This document shows, piece after piece, positions 5,496 to 62,526 of a stretch of 64,000 nt of DNA. Under the pieces are notes generated by a model. The model was not told the DNA's origin and did no database searches. It saw nothing but the letters and a program-made list of their open reading frames with translations. Each line of letters opens with the position of its first letter. Position 1 is the stretch's first letter. A program made the translations under genes and the position numbers. The stretch is from Lasiosphaeria ovina (Eukaryota > Ascomycota > Sordariomycetes > Sordariales > Lasiosphaeriaceae), in assembly GCA_033439765.1 (NCBI GenBank), contig JAULSN010000005.1, positions 2,309,001 to 2,373,000 of the forward strand, read 5' to 3'.

Positions 5496-6159
5496 GATTC
5501 GCCCGCTGCCCCCTTGGAATACACGGTGAGTATTCATGTCGCTGAGCGTCGGAGGGGGGATACATTGAGAAAAGGGGGAAAGAAAAACATAAAAAAATGA
5601 ATCCACATATGCGGCGGGCGGGATAAGGAGCAGATAACTTTTTTTGGGAAACATAATAATCAACAAAAGCCGGCCGACGGCGTTTTTGGGCAAACAGACC
5701 TCTTTGCTTTGTTTCTCTCTTTTGCTGCAAGTAAACCCTAACGCGGTTGCCGGCCGAGATGTGAAAACAAAACACCAATAAGCCATCTGAGCTCCTGTGT
5801 TACGGTGGTGACAAAACAGTCAGTCAAGTGACAAACTGTCGGTCAAGTGAGACGGGGCTGCGAATCGCAGCATGGAGGCGTCGTGTATGTGATCCGTTTG
5901 AAGATAAGCATCGTATGCCTACAAAAGGAAACGTCGCCGCCGTCAAACGGGTGTGATAACCGCCAAAGGCTTGTCCCTTTCGAGTATAAGTAGGCAAGTA
6001 CATCCACCACGATTGCGGCTCAATGGCCGTGCTATCCCTTACACTCACTCACTCGCCAGCAACCGTGCCTACTACCTAGATAGTTTGACGTTAATAGACG
6101 GCGACTCGAAGAACCATCCCCCCCAGAACAACTACCGCAGCACGCACCATTCCCCAACC

Positions 6160-6496
6160 ATGGGCTGCCAACCCAAATGCAGCTGCTGCCAGTTCAACGC
6201 CTACGACAGCCCGGCCACGGACTTCGCAAAGATAGCAGCCAAGGCGAGGCTCCCGACCCCAGACCCCCAAGAGCCTGGGCTCACTGGCTACCTGCTGCGC
6301 GCGAGGTGTCATGAGGGCAGAATCATTGGCTAATTAACTGTCCCAGAACAAGGACGGCGACCCCTGGCCAAAGCCTGGGAAGACAGAGCAGCAGCCAGCG
6401 CTAGCCCAGGCTCCACATCAGGATGACAAGGATACCAAACCCGAATCCAAGGAGGGAGGAGCAACTAGTGTCAGCCAATGCTCCAAGTCAGAATGA
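6160..6496 (+). CDS. Small Cys-bearing protein, splice site uncertain
   Basis: The ATG at 6160 (CAACC ATGG) opens MGCQPKCSCCQFNAYDSP, with four Cys in eight residues. Without splicing the frame ends at 6333 (57 residues). The segment GGCTAATTAACTGTCCCAG ending at 6346 is a good branch point and acceptor, and the sequence after it is open for 49 hydrophilic codons to a TGA at 6496. A GT donor at 6306 joins in the wrong frame. A GC donor after AAG at 6243 (GCGAGG) keeps the long frame and gives 77 residues. Which is right cannot be decided here. It is the third small Cys-headed gene in 4 kb, but its tail does not begin AEG, so kinship with the other two is only suggestive. Confidence 0.4.
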
Positions 6497-10996: not shown

Positions 10997-13900
10997 ACCT
11001 GGCACTCATCACCAAATTGCTTTCTATGGCTTGTTCTACCCCATTCGCCCTCCTCAGCACCTGGCCGCGCCATGATTGTCTCCCAATCTCTCTTTCTATA
11101 GTGCAGTAGTTGGACAACCTGTGTCGCATCTTCTGCGTACTGACGCATACCGAGCGAGGATATTTGGCTAGGCTGGGAAAAATAGGGAGCATATGTTGCG
11201 CTTGGGGTAGTTTTTTTTCTTTTCCAGTTGGGCACGTTTTCTTTCACTAAAGGTACACAAGCTGCGTCGTGGCTAGGCAGATGACTCTTACTCTCGAGCA
11301 GGAAGCATCACGGAACTAGCTAGGCTGATTGTATAATACACACACTTTATCATTACGCTCTTGATCTTGATGCCTTGTGAACTTTGAACTGTTCGTCTGC
11401 GCCTGTGGGAGTGGACTTCATGTCCGAAAAATAATTTCACCTAGGGGTGGCCCGCCTTGCACGTAGCCTTTTCGTGATGGCCTTGCAAGGCACCTGCTTT
11501 TCCTAGACGGCATGTCACCACACTACCAGCGCAACCAGGCTGTAAAAAGGAGGCCACAGCCCTAAATAACCTTGACCATCAGTGATACCCAAACCGCTCC
11601 GGCCAATACGCCCAGAGGCAGTGGACTTGGCTTTCCTACCTAGGGCCAGAAAACGCAGCAGCACCTGGATACAGCCAGCCAACCAGCCAGCTGCCAGTGG
11701 AAAGGACAGGCAGAACTACCACAGCCAACAGCACCCTTACCTGTGCAGAAATCCACACAGGACAGCCTCATGAGGGGCAATCGACTGTATTTCCAGTCGC
11801 CCAACCGAGATGGATATCCCTCCAACTCGTAAAAATGACCCAAACAAGAGATCAGATACGACAGCTCATCGCCAGCAGCTTAAACTAATCGCGCCGCCTG
11901 CTCTGCCATCCCTGCCACCTCCGCCGTCATACTACCGGCCAGCACGCCACCACGAACCAGCACCGCTCATTCCGCCGATAGAGCATGCCCCATGACTGAA
12001 CCGTCAGGGCTGTGTTCTCGCAACGGTGTACGCTGATCGCCGTACAAGATCCAAGAACCGAGATTCAACAGGGGACTAAGAGAACAAGATGCGTGAAATA
12101 GCCGTGGACAGATCCCCGTGCTCTTTATTCTTCTGCTACAGAAATAGCACAGCACAGCTCGGCCAGCCGAGACGACGCCCAGAAAATACAAGGAGACCAG
12201 GCTGGCGTTGGAACACGAGCCAAAAACGAGCAAGACTGCATGCTAATTATTGTTCTTATGCTGGGATAGCCTACAGCCTACAACCTACAGCCAATACAAG
12301 TACCGTTGCCCAGACCTTCAGACAACAGGTGTCTGTTTTTGTCTGCTGGTGCAGCGGTAGCTTACGACAGTTCTTTGCAAGACAGGCTCGAAACCTCTTT
12401 CCTTCTCCTACCCAGCCGACGCCAGCCCCGAGCCAGGGCACGAATCCCCTTCCACGTCCCAACTGGCGGCGATAACGGGTAACAATCCGGCCGCATCAGA
12501 ATGATAACATCCAACGGAACCAGACACTGAGACGATAATTACCCCGCGCATCTCGGGTGATACCCGCCTCGAGCAGAAGATGAAGAAGACGAAGAGGGGC
12601 GGTCCCAAAGCCACCCCGCTCCGCCTGCCATGATTACTTTCCCGGCGCCAGAAGCCAGACGACGAGATCACTGGCGGGTCTAACTATTACAACCAGCCCT
12701 GATGAATCATCACGGGCCGGCCTGCTGTGCAACTACCAACATCAAGCATCAGCCATGGGTCTGCGAAGTCATCCAACCTGAGCAGCTGGATCCGCACCGT
12801 CTCGGGGAATTTTTGGATAATCAAGAGCGCAAAGGCAGGGATTACAGGCGAGGCAGGTTGACGGCTGGTTGGTTGTTAGCAGCATTGGCAGCAGAACTGG
12901 CAGGAAATCATATTAAAGAAACAAAGAGGGGAAAAAAAGGGGCAGACAGGTTGTGGTGCTGCGGTGCTGGATTGTCTCCTAGAAAGACAGTGGCAAGGAT
13001 ACATATATCGTCAACTGTGGAATTTCCATCCCTCTCTCTCTCTCTGTTCTTCTTCTTCTTCTTCCTGATCCCCCCCACCGCACTCCACCGAATCCACGAT
13101 AACAGACATCATATCTACCCAGGGAAACCGATAGCAACTCAGACGAGCAAATGACCAGACACAAGCGTTGCTTGCAATGCGTGCATATTCACGTTTAGAC
13201 CTGGTCTCGCAGTGAGGGCCAGGAATCAGGGATCAAAGTTCTGGCACTGGCTGGCCCCAGTGAAAGTTCGGACATGGCAGGGAGGTGTATAGTTGATTAT
13301 GCCGGGCAAGAGAGAGAGGTCAGGAAAAAACCAACGACCTACCCTTGGTCAACCAACGATGGCCTTCAAGGCCCTGTTCGTGGCTGGAGAAAGAAAGTAA
13401 GGGGGGCAGTGGACAAAAGCAGACCGCACTGATAGGGTACCGGCCGAGCCGGCCCAGCCCAAAAGGAGTCACAAACTAATCCCAATCCCGATCCCAGTAC
13501 CACACGAATCCATGCAACCCATCAGCATATTATCTGTCCAACCCGGTTCCGTACCATACCATACCACACCGTAGATAAAATGAATGAATGAATGAATGAA
13601 TCAATGAATGAATGAATGAATGAATGAATGAATGAATAAATGAATTAATGAATGAATGAATGAATGAATGAATGCTGACTCAGCAACCTAGCCCCCCACA
13701 CACAACTTACACCCACCACACCACCTCCAGTCCACAACCCCCCAAAAAACCCCCAAAACCCCTCCCTCAAAATGAAATAGTCCGTAATATTCCAGCCCCA
13801 TCCGCCAAGTTCAACTGCCCAGGTAGTTCAGTTCGGTGCAGAAAAAGATAGCGACATGTGACACGTTTGCCTTGACGTCCGTTTAGAGGCAATCAGGCGG

Positions 13901-14767: not shown

Positions 14768-15377
14768 TTAGGCGGCATCGGAAAAGTCGTTGGGGGGTAG
14801 CTCCTGGCTGTTGAGAGGATAAACCGTTAGCGATGTATCACGAATGAAGGTAGTGGGATACTTACTCCGAAAGAGGCTCCTCCTTCTTGACTTTCTTTGA
14901 GGGAGTTTTATTGTCGCACTCCTCATCGTCCTCCCCCTCAGAATCTTGCTTCTTCGCCTTGCGCTTGGCGGAAGTCTTCTTAGCAGGGGTACTGGTAGCG
15001 CTACGCTTGCGAGGAGTCTTGGGCGTGCCCGATGCACTCGGAGCAGACTCAGCACCGCCGGCGACGGCTCCTCCATCCTTGCGACGGAGCTTTTGTAGAT
15101 GCTGCCTGCGAAGAGAAACCGTTAGCTTGTGAACATCCCAATTGAAAGTGGTGCACTAGGCAGGCAAGACAAAGCCAAAGCAAGCAGACGCGAAAAGAAA
15201 GTGGAAGTGAAAGTGAAAGTAGTACGTGATCGCCTTCACGGTGCAAGTGTAGCCCATTTCATGCATCCGAGCCATAACACCACGGAGCTGCTCCTGGGTT
15301 GGCTGCAGCTCTTGGGTGATGGCCGTGAGGAGATCATGGTCGGCGTGGTGACCCCAATTCATGCGATCGGCAGCCAT
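14768..15377 (-). CDS. Myb-like domain protein with complete three-exon model (array unit 6)
   Basis: Exons 15377-15226, 15105-14866 and 14807-14768, giving 143 residues. Introns are 120 and 58 nt (GTACTA...TTCGCAG and GTAAGT...CAACAG). The first exon codes MAADRMNWGHHADHDLL...GYTCTVKAI and ends two bases into a Thr codon. Exon 2 completes it and continues QHLQKLRRKDGG, the third helix expected of Myb_DNA-bind_8 domains. The tail is Lys/Ser-rich (TPRKRSATSTPAKKT, AKRKAKK, PSKKVKKEE), a clear nuclear signal, and ends DFSDAA. This is the last (3'-most) of the head-to-tail units on this strand and the only one whose second and third exons are unambiguous. Role inferred as DNA- or chromatin-binding. 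Confidence 0.75.
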
Positions 15378-15423
15378 GTTTGCTTGGGTAGAGGAAGCAG
15401 TTGAGATCTTCAAAGTGAAGAAG

Positions 15424-15738
15424 TCAAGAAGTCAAGAAAAAAGAAACCGAGCCAATTCGAAATGTGAATGCGCGAATGAGTGCTGCCTTGTAGAGCTGGT
15501 GCCGACGGCTGACTCTTGTGCGACGGTGGATGAGGAAGAAGGAAGAAGGGAGAGGTTGCAGAGGAGAGGAAGAGGGGCGGGGGAAATACATTGCGGCGCT
15601 CGCAGTGTAGCTGTATCCCTTCTCAGCAACGCGGTTGAGGATCTGGTCCCACTCTATCTGACTTGGGGGCGCCTCCAGGATGACTGCCTGCAGCAGAGCC
15701 AGGTGGGCATCTGCATCCCAAATAGTCGGCTTTGACAT
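15424..15738 (-). CDS. Minimal Myb-like domain gene (array unit 5)
   Basis: Exon 1 is 15738-15590 (149 nt), starting MSKPTIWDADAHLALLQAV and ending GYSYTASAA plus two bases at a GTATTT donor. This is the same phase-2 position as the other units. A plausible own second exon is 15508-15424 after an 81-nt intron (acceptor GTCAG), giving RRHQLYKAALIRAF and a stop, 77 residues in all. This lacks the Lys-rich tail of unit 6. Alternatively exon 1 could splice to the second exon of unit 6 (15105), which is in the right phase and would restore QHLQKLRRK. Only transcript data can choose. Confidence 0.5.
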   Translation of the reverse strand: MSKPTIWDADAHLALLQAVILEAPPSQIEWDQILNRVAEKGYSYTASAAMYFPRPSSSPLQPLPSSFFLIHRRTRVSRRHQLYKAALIRAFTFRIGSVSFFLTS

Positions 15739-15971
15739 GATTTTGGGCTTGATTCCGCGATATTCTTGTTGCGTGGTGACGGTGAAGCGGGTTTTGCGCG
15801 CACAAACGTAAAATTTGCCGCCAGGCTTGAGAGGTGAGGAAGCGGGGGGGAAGAGGGAAGGAGTAGCTAGCGACTGAGACGGGAAGAACTGGGGATTTCG
15901 GCTAGCCAAAAACAAAACTCAGGCAAGTGCCCCGCAATCAAAAACTGGAGTATGAGATCTGGTGCACGAAC

Positions 15972-16123
15972 ATGAGAGCCCCCTTGGAGAACTGGTGCTT
16001 GTCGCTCAAAGCTGCCGTGATGGCAGTGTAGTCGTCCGGGTTCGGCCGGAAGTGAGCTACAAACGCCATTAGAAGGTCTGTGTGGACCTCGGCATTCCAG
16101 TTCATGAGCTGTCGAGAACTCAT
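15972..16123 (-). CDS. Minimal Myb-like domain exon (array unit 4)
   Basis: A 152-nt first exon, the same length as in units 2 and 6 and in the 19.46-kb gene. It starts MSSRQLMNWNAEVHTDLL and ends KHQFSKGAL plus two bases at a weak GTTCGT donor. The core W-N-x2-V-H-x-D-L-L matches its neighbours. A TATATAAG box lies about 100 nt upstream. No convincing own second exon follows. An acceptor at ...GGCTAG before CCGAAATCCCC would run in frame through 58 codons into unit 5, giving a two-domain product. It may be a partial gene, an alternative first exon or part of a fusion. Confidence 0.45.
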
Positions 16124-16223
16124 TTCTAACAATCGTAGGGAGGTAAGGTAGTCTCGTCTGGCTAAAGACGAGGCGAAAGAGAGGTTGAGGGAGCGAGGTA
16201 TGGGGAGAGAGGCGGACGGCAAG

Positions 16224-16231
16224 CTTATATA
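16224..16231 (-). promoter_or_regulatory. TATA box inside the Myb array, ahead of unit 4
   Basis: The minus strand reads TATATAAG, about 100 nt before the ATG at 16123 and followed by a pyrimidine-rich leader. It suggests that unit 4 has its own transcription start. Confidence 0.5.
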
Positions 16232-16342
16232 CTCGAGCAGGTAGGTGATAAGCAGGTAGGTGATACAAGGCACTGCCCCGTCCAGCTCCAGTACCTGCCG
16301 CCGCCTGCCGCAACGTGAAAGGAAGGGAAAACAGAAAAATAC

Positions 16343-16482
16343 CTGATGGCGTTCCAGCCCATGTTGTGGCCCCGCGCTTGCATGACCTCGACGATTTGTT
16401 GATGCTGTTCTTTGGTGAGCGGACCTTGAACCTGCATCACCGCCTCAAATAAATCCTCTCGGATTTCTTCCCATTTAGCCAT
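16343..16482 (-). CDS. Minimal Myb-like domain exon (array unit 3)
   Basis: A 140-nt first exon, MAKWEEIREDLFEAVMQV...ARGHNMGWNAI, ending two bases into an Arg codon at GTATTT. It has the same phase and position as the other units, though the opening W-x3-R-x-D-L core has lost the usual Ala-His. A near acceptor (GCGGCAG, 38 nt away, short for an intron) would continue RRQVLELDG and stay open into unit 4. Otherwise no second exon is evident. Status uncertain for the reasons given under unit 4. Confidence 0.45.
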
Positions 16483-16947
16483 CGCGAGATTGAGATGTAA
16501 TGAGTAGGCAATACACTAAAGACGCTGCTGTGTGTAGCTGAGAGAGATGAAGTTGCGGGAAACGTGATTGAGTCAAGCTGCCGGAGCGGAAATTTTTGGA
16601 GGAGAAGGAGTGGAAGAGGAGAAAAAGGCTTGGAGGGATCCTTATCAGCTGCGAATTACGCAGCCTCCGGACCGTCTCCACAACTAAGCTGCCCTGCCTG
16701 AGCAAACAAGAGCACAGGCCATGCACGGAGCCTCAGATAGTGATTCAAATCTAGACGCGAGATAAGGGGGATAGCAGCAAGATAGGATACCGTACCGGAT
16801 ACTGTCCCAGTTGGTTTCGTGGTCGCGGTCCTTCATGAGCTCGACGATCTTTTCCTGGATCTCTCGCTCCAAGAAGGGCTGGAACGCCGTATACATGGCG
16901 ATCATCAGGTCCATGTGTGCCTGGTTGTCCCAAATGTATGAAGGCAT
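16475..16947 (-). CDS. Minimal Myb-like domain gene (array unit 2)
   Basis: Exon 1 is 16947-16796 (152 nt): MPSYIWDNQAHMDLMIAM...HETNWDSI plus two bases at GTACGG. A candidate exon 2 is 16697-16475 (intron 98 nt, acceptor GCTCAG). It opens with a G CAG codon join exactly as in unit 6 and reads RQGSLVVETVRRLRNSQL, giving 124 residues. The predicted stop falls just past the ATG of unit 3, so the two units would overlap by eight bases. The domain is well kept (W-D-x2-A-H-x-D-L). The tail is Ser/Phe-rich and looks like leader sequence, so the exon-2 model is weak. Confidence 0.5.
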
Positions 16948-17132
16948 CGTGTATAGCTTTGTTGGCTGTAGGGGGGAGTCGAGAAAGGTAGGTAGAAAGC
17001 CGCAGAGAGACGGAAACCAAAAAAAGGAGAAGACTCGGGAGAGAAGACGGGTGGTGACGGAGGGAAGTTTTTCTGAAACTTTTCGAAAAATACATGTACG
17101 ATCACGCGTCCACAGCACGAAGCGGAACTTAC

Positions 17133-17308
17133 CGAATACCCTGCCACGTGAAGTCGAGACCCTTAGTCTCCAGGAAGCCCATGATCACATCTTTATTCTT
17201 GGAGATCGCAACATTATTTATGGCCATTACCTCGGCCAACGCGCCGCAAAGGGCCATGTGCGCGTCGTTATTCCACTTCGACTCCTTCGCCTGGGCAGGA
17301 GTCTCCAT
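17133..17308 (-). CDS. Minimal Myb-like domain exon (array unit 1)
   Basis: A 176-nt first exon with a good start context (CACAAATGG): METPAQAKESKWNNDAHM...GLDFTWQGI plus two bases of an Arg codon at a consensus GTAAGT donor. It is the 5'-most of the six regularly spaced units. An acceptor at GTTTCAG (17073) would give RKTSLRHHPSS..., which is not similar to the QHLxKLRR continuation of family members, so the second exon is unresolved. The well-kept domain and donor suggest that the exon is expressed, not a random relic. Confidence 0.5.
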
Positions 17309-18169: not shown

Positions 18170-19458
18170 TTAGGCACCCAGACGTTCTCGTCCGACGATA
18201 TGCTCTACGCCTCGCCATAGTTGAAGCTGGAAACAAGTCAGCACGGGCTCCGTCGCGGAAAGAGAAGGGAAAAGATATAGGAAGATAATACAAACTCTGT
18301 CGTGTAGCCATGCCCTTGTGGAGGGTTGCTATTGTTATGGGCAGCGAGAGCGTTCATAACGGCTTCGTCTTCCAGCGGCGTCGTGTCCTGGCCATTGTCG
18401 AGCCTGGGACGCTTTGCGGGTTGCTCGTCGTGATCGTGATCCTCAAGGCTGGGGTCCACGGCTATATCGTCATGCACGGGTGTCTGTTCCTCGCCCATGC
18501 TGGACGAGCCTTCGGCAGGTGACTGCAGTGCCTCGCCGCCCTGGCCGACCTGCACGCCGCCAGAGCTTGGGAGGCCAGAGACATCGCCAGGAACGCCAGA
18601 CATCGGCAAGCCGTGAACGCCGGGCAGGCCGTGCATGTTGTGGACGCCGATGAAACCGTGCATGCCAGCAACGGGGGCTTGGTGGGGGACCCCCGAAAAG
18701 CCGGGGACGACGGGCGAGGCGGAGGCGCTGCCTTGGCCCCCCTGAGCGCCGGCGCTGCCTTGCTTCCTTGGACGACCGCGGCCGGGGCCAGGCCTGCGGG
18801 TGATGGGATTCAGGGTGGGATCAACTTTCCTTACCGGGTCGGATGGGGGCGGGTTGGCTGGCGGGTCGATTTTATTAGAAGCCCGACGCAGCCCCTGGAA
18901 GTGTTGCCTAGATACGGGTCAGTGAGGTGGCCGAGTGAGAGTGGCGGATAAAGGCATATGGACGGGGACATGATATGACAAGACGATGTCCAAGCTCTCA
19001 GGGGCTGGGTGTCGAATACAAAAGGGGGAAAGAGAGAAGCATTCAATAAGCCTGCTCTGTTTGAGAGGACTGAGACTGGCAGAAACCGACAGACAAAGAG
19101 ACACGCCAAGACAAGAGAAAAGACGTGAATATTGTATGTCGATGCAGGCCGGGCAGCTATGAGATCAGGAGTGGTGATGATGGTGGCGGTGATGGTGATG
19201 GTGATGGTGATGGTGATGGTAGTTGGTGGTTGGCATTTGAGACGGGTTGTGGAGCCATCTTGTGTGGACTCGACCCGACTCAACTCGGCAGAGACTGAAG
19301 ACTCACCGACATCCTTCATTTGTAAAGCCATAGCCCATGGAGCGCATGTGGTTGCCGATGGTGGTCCATTCTGCGCCGCTGATGACGCCAATGTTCTTGA
19401 CCGACAGAATGGTGAAAAACAGGTCCTTGTCGGCCCGGTCGTTCCAGTTCTTGTTCAT
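18170..19458 (-). CDS. Myb-like domain protein with AT-hook (cluster member)
   Basis: Exons 19458-19307, 18907-18292 and 18226-18170, giving 274 residues. Introns are 399 nt (GTGAGT...TCTAG) and 65 nt (GTATTA...TCCAG). Exon 1 has the same 152-nt length and phase-2 end as array units 2, 4 and 6. Domain: NWNDRADKDLFFTILSVKN, AEWTTIGNHMRSMGYGF and TNEGCRQHFQGLRRASNK, the most canonical Myb_DNA-bind_8 copy here. It is followed by an AT-hook, PGPGRGRPRKQG, predicted to bind the minor groove of AT-rich DNA. Then come a Gly/Val/His-rich stretch of imperfect GVHGLPG-type repeats and an acidic end with PAKRPRLDNG, a likely nuclear signal. The short third exon is the least certain part. Without that splice the frame ends at 18238. 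Probably the source gene from which the shorter array units derive, or the reverse. Confidence 0.7.
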
Positions 19459-49140: not shown

Positions 49141-50592
49141 TCATACAAACGTTGCGACTCTTGTCCAGCCATGCTCGTCGCCCGCATGGCGGAACTCGAC
49201 GCCCTCGGCAAAATAGCCGGCGTCCTGCCAAGCCTTCATCGTCTTGCCATCAAATGGCCCTTGCTTGTCGGCGTCGTCGCGGCCGTCCACCCACCGGAAC
49301 TCCCACATCTTAGTCACCAGACCCTCGGCCTCTTCGTCTTCCTGGGCGGGCTCGACCCAGTCCTCGCCCGTCTCGGTGCGGTAGTCCCGCACCAGCCGCT
49401 CCCTCTCCGTGTCGTAGATGCTGCGGTAGTCCCGCTGCAGGAGCTTGTCCGCGGCATCCGTGATGGCCTCAATGACTTGCGTGATCTTGACGTCTTTAGG
49501 GTCCTTTTCCTTGGCAGTGTCAACATCCATGGCATCGCTACCCGTCTTCTTCATTTTCTTCAACTTCCAGCTCGGTACCTTCTTGGACTTTGTCTTGGCC
49601 TTGCCCAGCCGGGCCAGGGCCTCGAGCACAGTCTCGCCCCGCTCCAGCCGCAGTATCAGCGCCTTCAGCAGATCCGACGTCAAGATGCTGTCGTCCTGGC
49701 GCTGTTTTTCGCGCATCTCGGCGTCGCGCTTCTCTCGCGCGGCTGCCGCTTTCTTCATGTCCTTCTTGCTGATGTCGTCCAGCCAGCGGTCGTGCACCGA
49801 GTCCGCGTCAAGGGCCTTGCGGATGTAGTTTCCCGCCTCGTCGAACGCGCCTTCCTCCTGCTCCTGTCGCATGTTGAAGGCATCGATCTTGGGTGCGTGT
49901 TTCTTAAGCCCGCCGAGGCCGACTTCTTCGTCTATGCCCTCCTCGGCAATGGCCGCCTCAATGTCGGCGTCGTCTTCGTCGTCGTCAGAGCTCTCATTGT
50001 CGTCCATAGCGTAAGCACTGAGATTGCCGTCTAAACGAATCCTGCCGCCGCTCTTGCTCCTGGCTTCTTGACCCTCGATTTCGTCATCGGCAAGGAAACG
50101 GACGTCTTTGTTCTTCTTGCCTGCGGTTTTGCCGGCGGCCTTGCTGTTGGCTGCGTCGTCATCGTCATCTTCCCCAAACATGTCGATTTCATCATCATCT
50201 TCGGCATTATCGCCTGGAACAGCAGACGAGTTATAATTGTCCATGGCTTTGGCTAGGTCCACGTCGTCGGCATCTGCGCCCTTCTTCTTACTCTTGCGCT
50301 CCTCAGCCCGGGCATTGAAGAACTCATTTTCCGAGTCCGAGTCATAGCCATCAATGTTGATGGCACCGCGTTTCGTAGCACGACCAGTTGTGCCAATGAC
50401 ATCTGCGGCAAGGAGGTCCTCATTGTCGTCCGAGTCCGAGTCTCGCGCGGTCGGTGCCAGCGCTGACGGGTTCCGCACGTCAAATCTCACCTTCTTGCTG
50501 CCACCGGCTGTATCGGCATCCTCTCCATGGTGCACCCGTGCAAATTCCTCGCCAGCCCTCTTAGGACGCGCTGCTGAGAATCGGGATGCCAT
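49141..50592 (-). CDS. LIN1: LIN1/CD2BP2-like U5 snRNP protein with GYF domain
   Basis: Single exon, 483 residues. I chose the ATG at 50592 (MASRFSAARPKRAGEEFARV) over an in-frame ATG 35 codons upstream, because the longer head is Arg-rich leader-like sequence and the family starts close to the R-P-K-R motif. The order is a basic head with KKVRFD, acidic Ser/Asp-rich regions with GYDSDSENEFF, a helical middle (DDISKKDMKKAAAAREKRD), and a C-terminal GYF domain (WEFRWVDGRDDADKQGPFDG... YFAEGVEFRH). GYF domains bind Pro-rich peptides. Yeast Lin1/Snu40 and human CD2BP2 (U5-52K) associate with U5 snRNP during assembly in the nucleus. It is divergent from UFD1, with 0.6 kb shared upstream sequence. 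Confidence 0.9.
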   Translation of the reverse strand: MASRFSAARPKRAGEEFARVHHGEDADTAGGSKKVRFDVRNPSALAPTARDSDSDDNEDLLAADVIGTTGRATKRGAINIDGYDSDSENEFFNARAEERKSKKKGADADDVDLAKAMDNYNSSAVPGDNAEDDDEIDMFGEDDDDDAANSKAAGKTAGKKNKDVRFLADDEIEGQEARSKSGGRIRLDGNLSAYAMDDNESSDDDEDDADIEAAIAEEGIDEEVGLGGLKKHAPKIDAFNMRQEQEEGAFDEAGNYIRKALDADSVHDRWLDDISKKDMKKAAAAREKRDAEMREKQRQDDSILTSDLLKALILRLERGETVLEALARLGKAKTKSKKVPSWKLKKMKKTGSDAMDVDTAKEKDPKDVKITQVIEAITDAADKLLQRDYRSIYDTERERLVRDYRTETGEDWVEPAQEDEEAEGLVTKMWEFRWVDGRDDADKQGPFDGKTMKAWQDAGYFAEGVEFRHAGDEHGWTRVATFV

Positions 50593-51201
50593 GTCGTGAG
50601 ATGCTTTGTGAAATCTGAACCGATTGGGCTGAGCTTGTAACTGTAATCCAGGCAGGCTCCCGTCACGTGCTCGTGATGCACGTATCCAATATCTCATAGA
50701 AAATCCCTAGAAACAAAACAGGCTGCCAGATGTCGACCGAGAATGATTACAAGGAACCGCTTTGGTATAAAGTGTTGGAGTGAAGACGAAGGTGAAAGTG
50801 AAGGGGGCGAGTGGGTATGAAGACGGTTGTAACATTCCTCGTTCATACATGGCAGGGCAGCACCGTACCTCAGCCCGGCTTCAGCTTTAGTCCCCGCTTC
50901 TCCACAGGCAACTGGTCGCGCCACAGCACCTATTAGCCACAATTTACCCCGCCGCCCCGCGTGGGCTTATTAGGCGGCCAGGTACCTAAACAACGTACTC
51001 GAGTTGGAGTTATGTCATCCGCTGGTGCCTTCCCACCTCGCCCAAAGCTCCCAGCTTCTCGTCATTAACTAAACAAGCTTTGCTGAGCACCCATTTTCAC
51101 TCTCGTGTCCTCCAAAACCTTACAAACGTGACAGCACGCTAGTGTTCGCATAAAACTCCGACACCGACGATCGCCGCAGCCACGGCGAACATACCGTCAA
51201 G

Positions 51202-60167: not shown

Positions 60168-62526
60168 ATGACGGGCACACACTCGCGCAACCGCAGGCTG
60201 CCTTTCCTGCACCGGAACTGGATCAGAGCCACCAACCACTGGAACACCAAGATGGGAAATAACGCGTCGTCGCCGTCTCGCGACGCTGTCGACAAGTGCG
60301 GCAACGGCGAAGATCGTTGCCAGCACAGCAACAAGCGCCCCCGCATCGACAACGACTATGACGGCTTTCCGCTCTTTGAGCCTTATGCCACCATCCCGCG
60401 GGCCCTCCGCATCGAACTCCTCAAGGTCTGCCACAAGGACGCGCCTCGCGTCAAGAATGGCATCCTCAACGGTCTAATCCCGCCAAACGTCAAAGACACA
60501 AATCACTTCAGAGTCCGTTGCAGTATCAAGGTCACGTGCCGTAGAGGTGACGAGGATGTCGTCTTGCACGCCGACAGCCAGCTGTGCGACGTCAACATGT
60601 TCAAGAACCCCGCCGGCTCCTCTCCAATGGCCCGCTTCTCCTCCATCCAGCCCTTCTACATCCCCGAAGACAAGATCAGTCTCGAGCATGACGAGGGCGT
60701 GGTCTTTGGCCTCGCCGACTCATACCAGGTGGTAATCCGGCTCGAGTCCGGCGGTGGTATTAACTGGCCCCCCAATGACCTCCTCCCACCCGACAACTCA
60801 GCCCATTGGAATGACAGGCGGCTCCCTCTTAGGCAGTGGGCGTTCACCGCCACCATTGTCGACATATACAACCGCAACCGCAAAACCATTCGACTGAAGC
60901 TGAAGAAGACTTCCCAGGGCGACGAGATGACTGATTTTTCCATAGACGTTGATGTCCGCTGGTTTACGCCAGTTTCCACCCAGCTTGCGCGTGGGAAGGA
61001 TATCAAGCAGTCCATCACAGTATCTGCCCGGAACGAGACTGTGCTGCCGCCAATTAACGGTGTTGTGAACGGGAATTCACCCACAAAGGTCGTGAACGGT
61101 GTGAACGGCACCGATATCGGTGTTAATGGCGTAAACGGTGCCAACGGGCACCAGCAAGACCACATAGACGACCACGGCCTCGAATACCTGGCCAATGGAG
61201 AGGCAGATAAGCTCCCGAATGGGATTACAAATGGTGCTTTTTCAGAGCTCCCCGACGACTTGGCCGAGGGCGAAGTGACGCCAAGTCGAACCAGACGGCC
61301 GAGGCCAGAAATCAACTACAACGTCAAGCACATCTGGAACACCGCCGTTGGGAAGGAGCCCAAGAAACGGCGGAGGTTAGACGACGAGATTGACCAGCCT
61401 GACGAGCAGTCCATCACATATTTGCTTCCACCCGAGCAAGTACACACCGAGAAGCTCGCGTGTCTGATTTGCGGTGCGGAGAACGAGCGGATCACCCAGC
61501 TACGAGCTCATTGCCAGAGCCACCCGCAGTATGACTTTTATTTTCAACCCCGGGACGCCCGGACGAAGGGAGAGCTCAGGGTTCAGGTCACGCCAAGTGC
61601 CACTAATCTTGCCCAAGCGCTCCGGCCAAAAGTTTATCAGCTCGGTCTCCCAGTCAAGCCACTTGACCTAGATAAATATGTCGAGGGCGACCTCTCATGG
61701 GTCACGTCTCGTCTAGGCCCCGATGACGATCACGAGATTATTGAAAAATTCGTTCCGGCGAGGGTTCCCAAGGCAAGCCTCTCTACGGATAGACAGTTCT
61801 CTTGCAGTACAAAACTAACACATCCCCAGAAACTCGCCAGCAAGCGGTCAAAGAAGAAGATAGTGGTACCCAACATCAAACAGCCGCTTTTCGACCCGCT
61901 GAGCAAAGCACAGCTTGTGCCAGGCGCTGAAATCCGCCAGCACCCGGTAGACGATTCATGGCTTCTTCTCAAACATCGTGATAGCTTGCAAGACTTTCTT
62001 GACGTCGATCCCGGGGAGAAGGAGTACATGCAGGAATGGGACTCGTTTGTCTTGAACAAGCACATCTCTTCTGAGCAGTACCTGCCGCGCGTCTTCGTCG
62101 GCTTTGTGAAGGAGAAAGCGGGCTGGATTGTGCCCAAACGGAGTCGGTTGGAAGAGTTTAGCAAGCACGTTTCGATGTTGCTGGCAAGGCGAGCCATCAA
62201 CGAGGCATCCATTTTCGAGGCCACCAAGATAATCAACGAGGCGAGGACCAAAAACTCTGGCGAGGCGCCCAAAGTACTACCCAGGCATAACGTTACGGGC
62301 GGGTGCAATGCCTGCGGCAAACCTGTGCCGGTGTCGGCAATGTTGTCCTGCTCTATCAAGGTAAGCGGTATCCCATTGTTCAAAGCCCAGTGGGCAAATT
62401 TGAAGGAGCGCTTCTAACGTTCTCTTTTAGGCGTGCAAAAAACGTCTGTACCACGTGGATTGCGTGGACGGTGTGGACGAGGAAGTTTTGGAAGAGAAAA
62501 CTTGGGTGTGCGGCAAGTGCTCCTAG
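60168..62526 (+). CDS. SUZ12: SUZ12, Polycomb repressive complex 2 subunit (VEFS-box)
   Basis: Exons 60168-61772, 61830-62360 and 62431-62526, giving 743 residues. Intron 1 is a 57-nt GC-AG intron: AAG|GCAAGC, branch ACTAACA, acceptor CCCCAG. It has no stop and a length divisible by three, so an unspliced frame also looks open. Intron 2 is 70 nt. Features in order: LPFLHRNWIRATNHWN; an N-terminal WD/C2-like region; a linker with NGVNG repeats; a C2H2 finger, CLICGAEN...LRAHCQSH (about 430-455); the VEFS box (about 570-690: EYMQEWDSFVLNKH, WIVPKRSRLEEFSKHVS); and a C-terminal C4HC-type, PHD-like motif (CNACGKP... YHVDC... WVCGKC). SUZ12 binds and activates the EZH/KMT6 methyltransferase that makes H3K27me3. 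ATG 60252 (MGNNASS) is an alternative start. Confidence 0.93.

Follow-up and report, generated by a model that had tools for sequence, protein, structure and literature searches.

A putative array of variable first exons sharing a single tail in the fungus Lasiosphaeria ovina

Comparative analysis of a minus-strand locus in the ascomycete Lasiosphaeria ovina suggests that it is probably one transcription unit carrying a variable-first-exon array, in which six starts would be spliced to one shared tail. The window, by which we mean the whole stretch of 64,000 nucleotides analyzed (contig JAULSN010000005.1, positions 2,309,001 to 2,373,000, of assembly GCA_033439765.1), contains six such units (U1 to U6), each opening with an ATG and with a first exon of 47-59 codons. 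An earlier note on this DNA had suggested that the locus may work in this way, as alternative first exons with their own starts and a shared tail, and this reading is the one best supported by the comparative data, namely conservation unit by unit, the occurrence of Tyr after the donor, the completion of helix 3 by the tail, and the annotated Lasiosphaeria miniovina protein P0040. The locus displays some of the features by which variable-first-exon clusters are recognized, namely tandem homologous first exons with their own start codons and a single splice phase fitting one constant region. Its parts are as follows, with a slash marking the exon-intron boundary.

17133..17308, minus strand: unit 1 first exon, 59 aa, donor CG/GTAAGT; L. 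miniovina orthologue P0041
16796..16947, minus strand: unit 2 first exon, 51 aa, donor CG/GTACGG; metagenome counterpart in P0042, and the subject of a codon-position test
16343..16482, minus strand: unit 3 first exon, 47 aa, donor AG/GTATTT; counterparts P0040, P0042, P0043, P0055, and P0056
15972..16123, minus strand: unit 4 first exon, 51 aa, weak donor AT/GTTCGT; counterparts P0040 (joined to the tail), P0045, and P0047
15590..15738, minus strand: unit 5 first exon, 50 aa, donor AT/GTATTT; counterparts P0003, P0004, P0005, P0030, P0035, P0045, P0047, P0053, and P0054
15226..15377, minus strand: unit 6 first exon, 51 aa, donor AC/GTACTA; 29 of 44 database rows show it running straight into QHLQKLR
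15121..15126, minus strand: GCTAAC branch site of the putative shared acceptor, whose AG ends at 15106; the first CTRAC..YAG pair 3' of all six donors
14866..15105, minus strand: putative shared tail exon, with QHLQKLRRK (the remainder of predicted helix 3) and a Lys-rich tail
14768..14807, minus strand: final exon with the stop codon; the preceding intron (14865-14808, 58 nt) has a GCTAAC branch site

The layout agrees with what had been described before: all six ATGs (17308, 16947, 16482, 16123, 15738, and 15377) and their spacings (361, 465, 359, 385, and 361) are correct, the first exons measure 176, 152, 140, 152, 149, and 152 nt, so that three of the six have the noted length of 152 nt, and in all six the GT follows the second base of a codon. 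The 15106 acceptor is likewise in frame with all six donors, as had been claimed, and the joins stay open through the tail; the donor numbers given in that description denote the final base of each exon and 15106 the final base of the intron, with the tail exon beginning at 15105. The codon split by the junction is completed by the G of the tail exon to give R, R, R, M, M, and T for units 1 to 6, and the proteins from the six unit-to-tail joins, all open and 139-151 aa long, are as the array would require. A profile of 43 unit exons, the six window units themselves included, recovers all six units among the open reading frames of the window (E 1.3e-15 to 3.6e-27), and profiles of single units cross-match some of the others, for example that of U4 with U5 (E 2.8e-6) and U6 (E 2.3e-5). 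Units 2-6 show merely 18-26% protein identity to unit 1, which rules out a recent tandem duplication as the origin of the array.

In the proposed mechanism, each of the six units would possess its own promoter-like upstream stretch, ATG, and 5' splice site and no canonical 3' splice site, so that a transcript begun at any unit would splice out everything up to 15106. From unit 1 to unit 6, the introns to the shared acceptor would then measure 2027, 1690, 1237, 866, 484, and 120 nt; introns of up to 2 kb are long for such a fungus, which counts against the array. No CTRAC-YAG pair of branch site and acceptor occurs between the unit 1 donor and 15106 (expected in shuffles, 2.5; fraction at or below the observed, 0.061), an absence that lies within chance, as 49 of 248 overlapping window tiles of equal length likewise have none. 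The same scan does recover the acceptors at 15106 and 14808 of the tail and at 18908 of the neighboring gene. Also unfavorable are two looser CTRAY sites, within U2 and U4, and the weak donor of unit 4 in L. ovina (GTTCGT). Upstream of the units, five of the six regions are richer in pyrimidine than 90% of 1160 window tiles, an indirect promoter signal in favor of the array, whereas that of unit 1 is not rich (0.56); TATATA occurs once among the six upstream regions.

Database proteins that read through the unit donors provide traces of these sites. The residue past the donor is Tyr in all five U3 rows and in all 15 U6 rows, one of which is L. ovina's own P0001, matching G/TAY and favoring the array. 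Unit 5 is mixed and speaks against it, since among nine rows four end exactly at the donor, one continues with Tyr, and four continue otherwise; of these last, P0004, P0005, and P0030 resemble short joins to unit 6, and P0003 seemingly reads on. As for the annotated gene models, P0040 runs from the GALM of U4 directly into QHLQKLRRK, bypassing units 5 and 6 just as the array would predict, but it is the only annotated model in which an upstream unit is joined to the tail. The L. ovina models join U2 to the middle of U4 (P0046) or use a later U6 donor (P0001), and the L. miniovina model P0041 splices U1 locally, all of which count against the array. If confirmed by transcripts, the array would explain why the locus is split or fused from species to species in database models.

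A structure prediction for the U6-type family gives three helices, at residues 12-26, 30-42, and 49-63, with moderate confidence (mean pLDDT 60.6 overall). The splice junction, at residue 53 of P0002, falls inside predicted helix 3, and therefore no upstream exon alone would encode the whole domain. The second half of this helix is absent from each upstream exon and is supplied by the shared tail, in favor of the array, and QHLQKLR is invariant across 25 aligned relatives. The six proteins would thus have in common the end of helix 3 and a basic Lys-rich tail, and would vary in helices 1-2 and in the opening turn of helix 3. The units had earlier been called Myb exons, but searches with family profiles gave no match, to Myb/SANT, GARP, or any other family, that exceeds a curated cut-off. 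The joined unit 3 model reaches 16.4 bits against PF08461, a winged helix (E 0.0089; cut-off 21.4), a relative upstream of the array, unit 0, matches PF13837 (Myb_DNA-bind_4) below cut-off (E 0.078), and TIGR01557 (myb_SHAQKYF, NCBIfam) matches one of 11 members at E 0.19. The name GARP applies to the Myb-like domain of plant ARR10-B and SHAQKYF proteins. Of the solved structures searched, the plant ARR10 B-motif (PDB 1IRZ, E 0.22) gives the best hint, a collinear match over profile positions 3-58 with HLQK.R in register in helix 3; the E values of 0.22 and 0.19 are weak, however, and unrelated dynein light chains follow closely (0.49 and 0.5). 1IRZ was not among the matches listed for the full-length profile against solved structures, and a Foldseek search with the predicted structure gave no noteworthy match. 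"Myb-like" may be regarded as a reasonable, weakly supported lead rather than a result, with the plant GARP domain as the best hint.

Relatives were collected in three protein searches, giving 39, 5, and 16 matches with four in common; the best database match is P0001, Lasiosphaeria ovina B0T24DRAFT_680488. An exon tree of 43 rows was built from the six L. ovina units, the counterparts of U1 to U5 (1, 1, 5, 3, and 9, respectively), and 18 U6 rows chosen from 44 in the database, omitting P0044, which is a partial U3 from another place in L. miniovina, and P0046, the misjoined model of L. ovina itself. The tree separates the six units with five changes, the minimum possible, against a mean of 21.8 in shuffles, none of 200 being as low, and so supports the array. 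Counterparts in other fungi or metagenomes cluster by unit rather than by species, weakly for U4: only 15% of bootstrap trees have a branch that sets U4 apart from the rest, a point against the array. The tree has few columns, many open forks, and long branches, and U1 and U2 are represented by two rows apiece. When L. ovina is compared with L. miniovina, 50 of 59 residues are identical in U1 (P0041), 46 of 47 in U3 (P0040), and 44 of 51 in U4 (P0040). Taken at the protein level, these comparisons indicate that the variable exons are under selection across species.

The order of the units also recurs. U1-U2 is found in P0041 (U2 being read there in another frame), U2-U3 in P0042, U3-U4 in P0040, U4-U5 in P0045 and P0047, and U5-U6 in P0003, P0004, P0005, P0030, and P0035, and this sharing of neighbors across sources is more in keeping with inheritance of the array than with independent duplications. 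In Podospora didyma, proteins with U4-U5 and with U6 and the tail come from equally long contigs (5285177), as they do in Parachaetomium inaequale (309832). Against the array, all six units together were not found in a second genome among the database relatives, the U1 counterpart was found in Lasiosphaeria only, and outside Lasiosphaeria U2 and U3 occur only in metagenome-type proteins.

The profile of unit exons revealed a seventh relative upstream of the array, unit 0, which the earlier note had overlooked and which seems to be a complete relative that has a separate tail, a candidate whose exons were mapped up to 18835.

19307..19458, minus strand: unit 0 first exon, 152 nt, phase 2, opening with MNKNWNDRADKDLFF, donor GTGAGT
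18835..18907, minus strand: start of the unit 0 second exon, QHFQGLRR..., with the acceptor AG at 18908 after an ACTGAC branch site, drawn to a candidate donor at 18834

Unit 0 is like the array units in its 152-nt first exon of phase 2, in the splitting of helix 3 at the identical place, and in its QHFQGLRR continuation, and unlike them in its own acceptor and different tail. It thereby serves as a positive control, exhibiting the local acceptor and tail that units 1-5 appear to lack. The array itself would appear to have grown through duplication of the first exon only. Exons related to unit 0 lie at C9:190183, C32:210732, and C32:180674, and a Gly/Pro-rich open stretch in the unit 0 gene (window 19458-18200, minus strand) contains RPGPGRGRPRKQG, which we take to be AT-hook-like.

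At the search sensitivity used, the tail is single in the L. ovina genome save for one decayed piece on contig C1 (L003, C1:349000-358000, at about 6000-6330), which is 71% alike and has a unit-4-like stretch just upstream by eye. A copy of units 1-4 without the tail is present on contig C32 (L029, C32:617000-626900), 87-96% alike over five aligned blocks; the ATG is gone in units 1, 3, and 4, stops in the window's frame interrupt the same three units, and unit 2 is open. The array in the window shows none of this damage. In units 1-3 of the C32 copy, 22 of 33 differences are C>T or G>A. Shorter fragments of units 1-4 or their flanks occur at thirteen further loci (L030-L042), and the copy and broken fragments of units 1-4 are found mostly on contig C32, also on C2 and C23; copies of units 5 and 6 elsewhere in the genome were not among the matches listed, and the counts are lower bounds.

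These copies bear on one of the alternatives, already raised in the earlier note, that the locus consists of one live gene (unit 6 plus the tail) and decaying duplicates of its first exon. Unit 6 alone adjoins the tail, and the genome does contain decayed fragments of units 1-4 at other places; nevertheless, all five upstream units have kept their start and frame, with a GT at the homologous position, their conserved counterparts form distinct lineages in other sources, and the truly decaying C32 copy looks quite different, so that this alternative is contradicted and we hold it to be very improbable. A somewhat less remote alternative, still improbable, is that the units form segments within larger multi-domain proteins, such as U5 with U6 and the tail or U3 with U4 and the tail, as would be taken from the records P0003, P0004, P0005, and P0030 (U5-U6-tail), P0040 (U3-U4-tail), and P0045 and P0047 (U4-U5). 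The linkers in these records vary by eye, though, and that of P0040 is poorly conserved, the translated stretch after the U3 donor up to U4 keeping 28 of 84 alignment columns, 18 of the columns being gaps; this contrast with the conserved exons also favors the array. In addition, only one of the five ATG spacings in L. ovina (465) is divisible by three, and no CTRAC..YAG acceptor precedes any unit.

Units 1-5 could on the other hand be separate tiny genes, locally spliced or unspliced, each making its own small protein and leaving the tail to unit 6. Each unit does have its own ATG, with a pyrimidine-rich upstream region in four of these five, and unit 1 combines a consensus donor with a usable AG 60 nt on, as in the L. 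miniovina P0041 model, so that local splicing through a 60-nt intron to an open product of 165 aa is possible in L. ovina, a point against the array. Yet the read-through rows share nothing long past the donor by eye and their ends differ, and the three loose helix-3-like matches between donors (HYLRLR at 16742, RVYKL at 16235, and HATRI at 15775) do not lie beside any listed acceptor. The P0041 continuation reads unit 2 DNA out of frame, yet 7 of the 10 changes inferred from it for unit 2 fall at third positions of the unit's own frame, against 2 at first and 1 at second positions, small numbers as these are, and unit 0 exemplifies what a real local acceptor and tail look like. We consider separate genes unlikely, and prefer the variable-first-exon array.

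Clusters of multiple variable first exons are established in vertebrates for UGT1, protocadherin alpha/gamma, GCNT2, and UGT2A (PMC1885805), and they share with the L. ovina array tandem homologous first exons of near-equal length in one reading frame, downstream constant exons, N-terminal variation with a common C-terminus, and pseudogene relics. The L. ovina array differs in being fungal, in its total size of about 2.5 kb, and in its exons of 47-59 codons, which would divide one small, predicted three-helix domain that is presumably nuclear. Alternative first exons as an event class have been reported in fungi (PMC6176087 and PMC4035056), and a limited literature search found no report of a fungus with homologous first exons arrayed in tandem. 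On balance, we lean toward a promoter-choice array in the style of protocadherin and UGT1, at least partly predating the spread of the sampled Sordariales families, in which helices 1-2 of a DNA-binding-type domain would be swapped and the shared exon would supply the helix-3 contact end, giving six regulators with related targets and different partners or expression. The sequence comparisons show the anatomy, the reading frames, the conservation of the exons, their grouping by unit with counterparts, and their order in relatives; separate promoters, long splices, DNA binding, and differences between isoforms in use or partners are what we infer for such a system. If transcripts confirm the array, a fungus would possess a variable-first-exon cluster of the vertebrate style, its boundary lying within helix 3 of one small domain, and promoter choice together with one shared acceptor could then diversify a regulator in a compact genome.

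Elsewhere in the window, 10 long open reading frames were scanned; those at 60168-62414 (plus strand) and 49141-50694 (minus strand) contain VEFS-Box (polycomb) and GYF domains, and the remaining 8 gave no Pfam match at E 1e-5. An AATG tetranucleotide tandem repeat occupies window positions 13579-13678, about 1 kb 3' of the array's stop.
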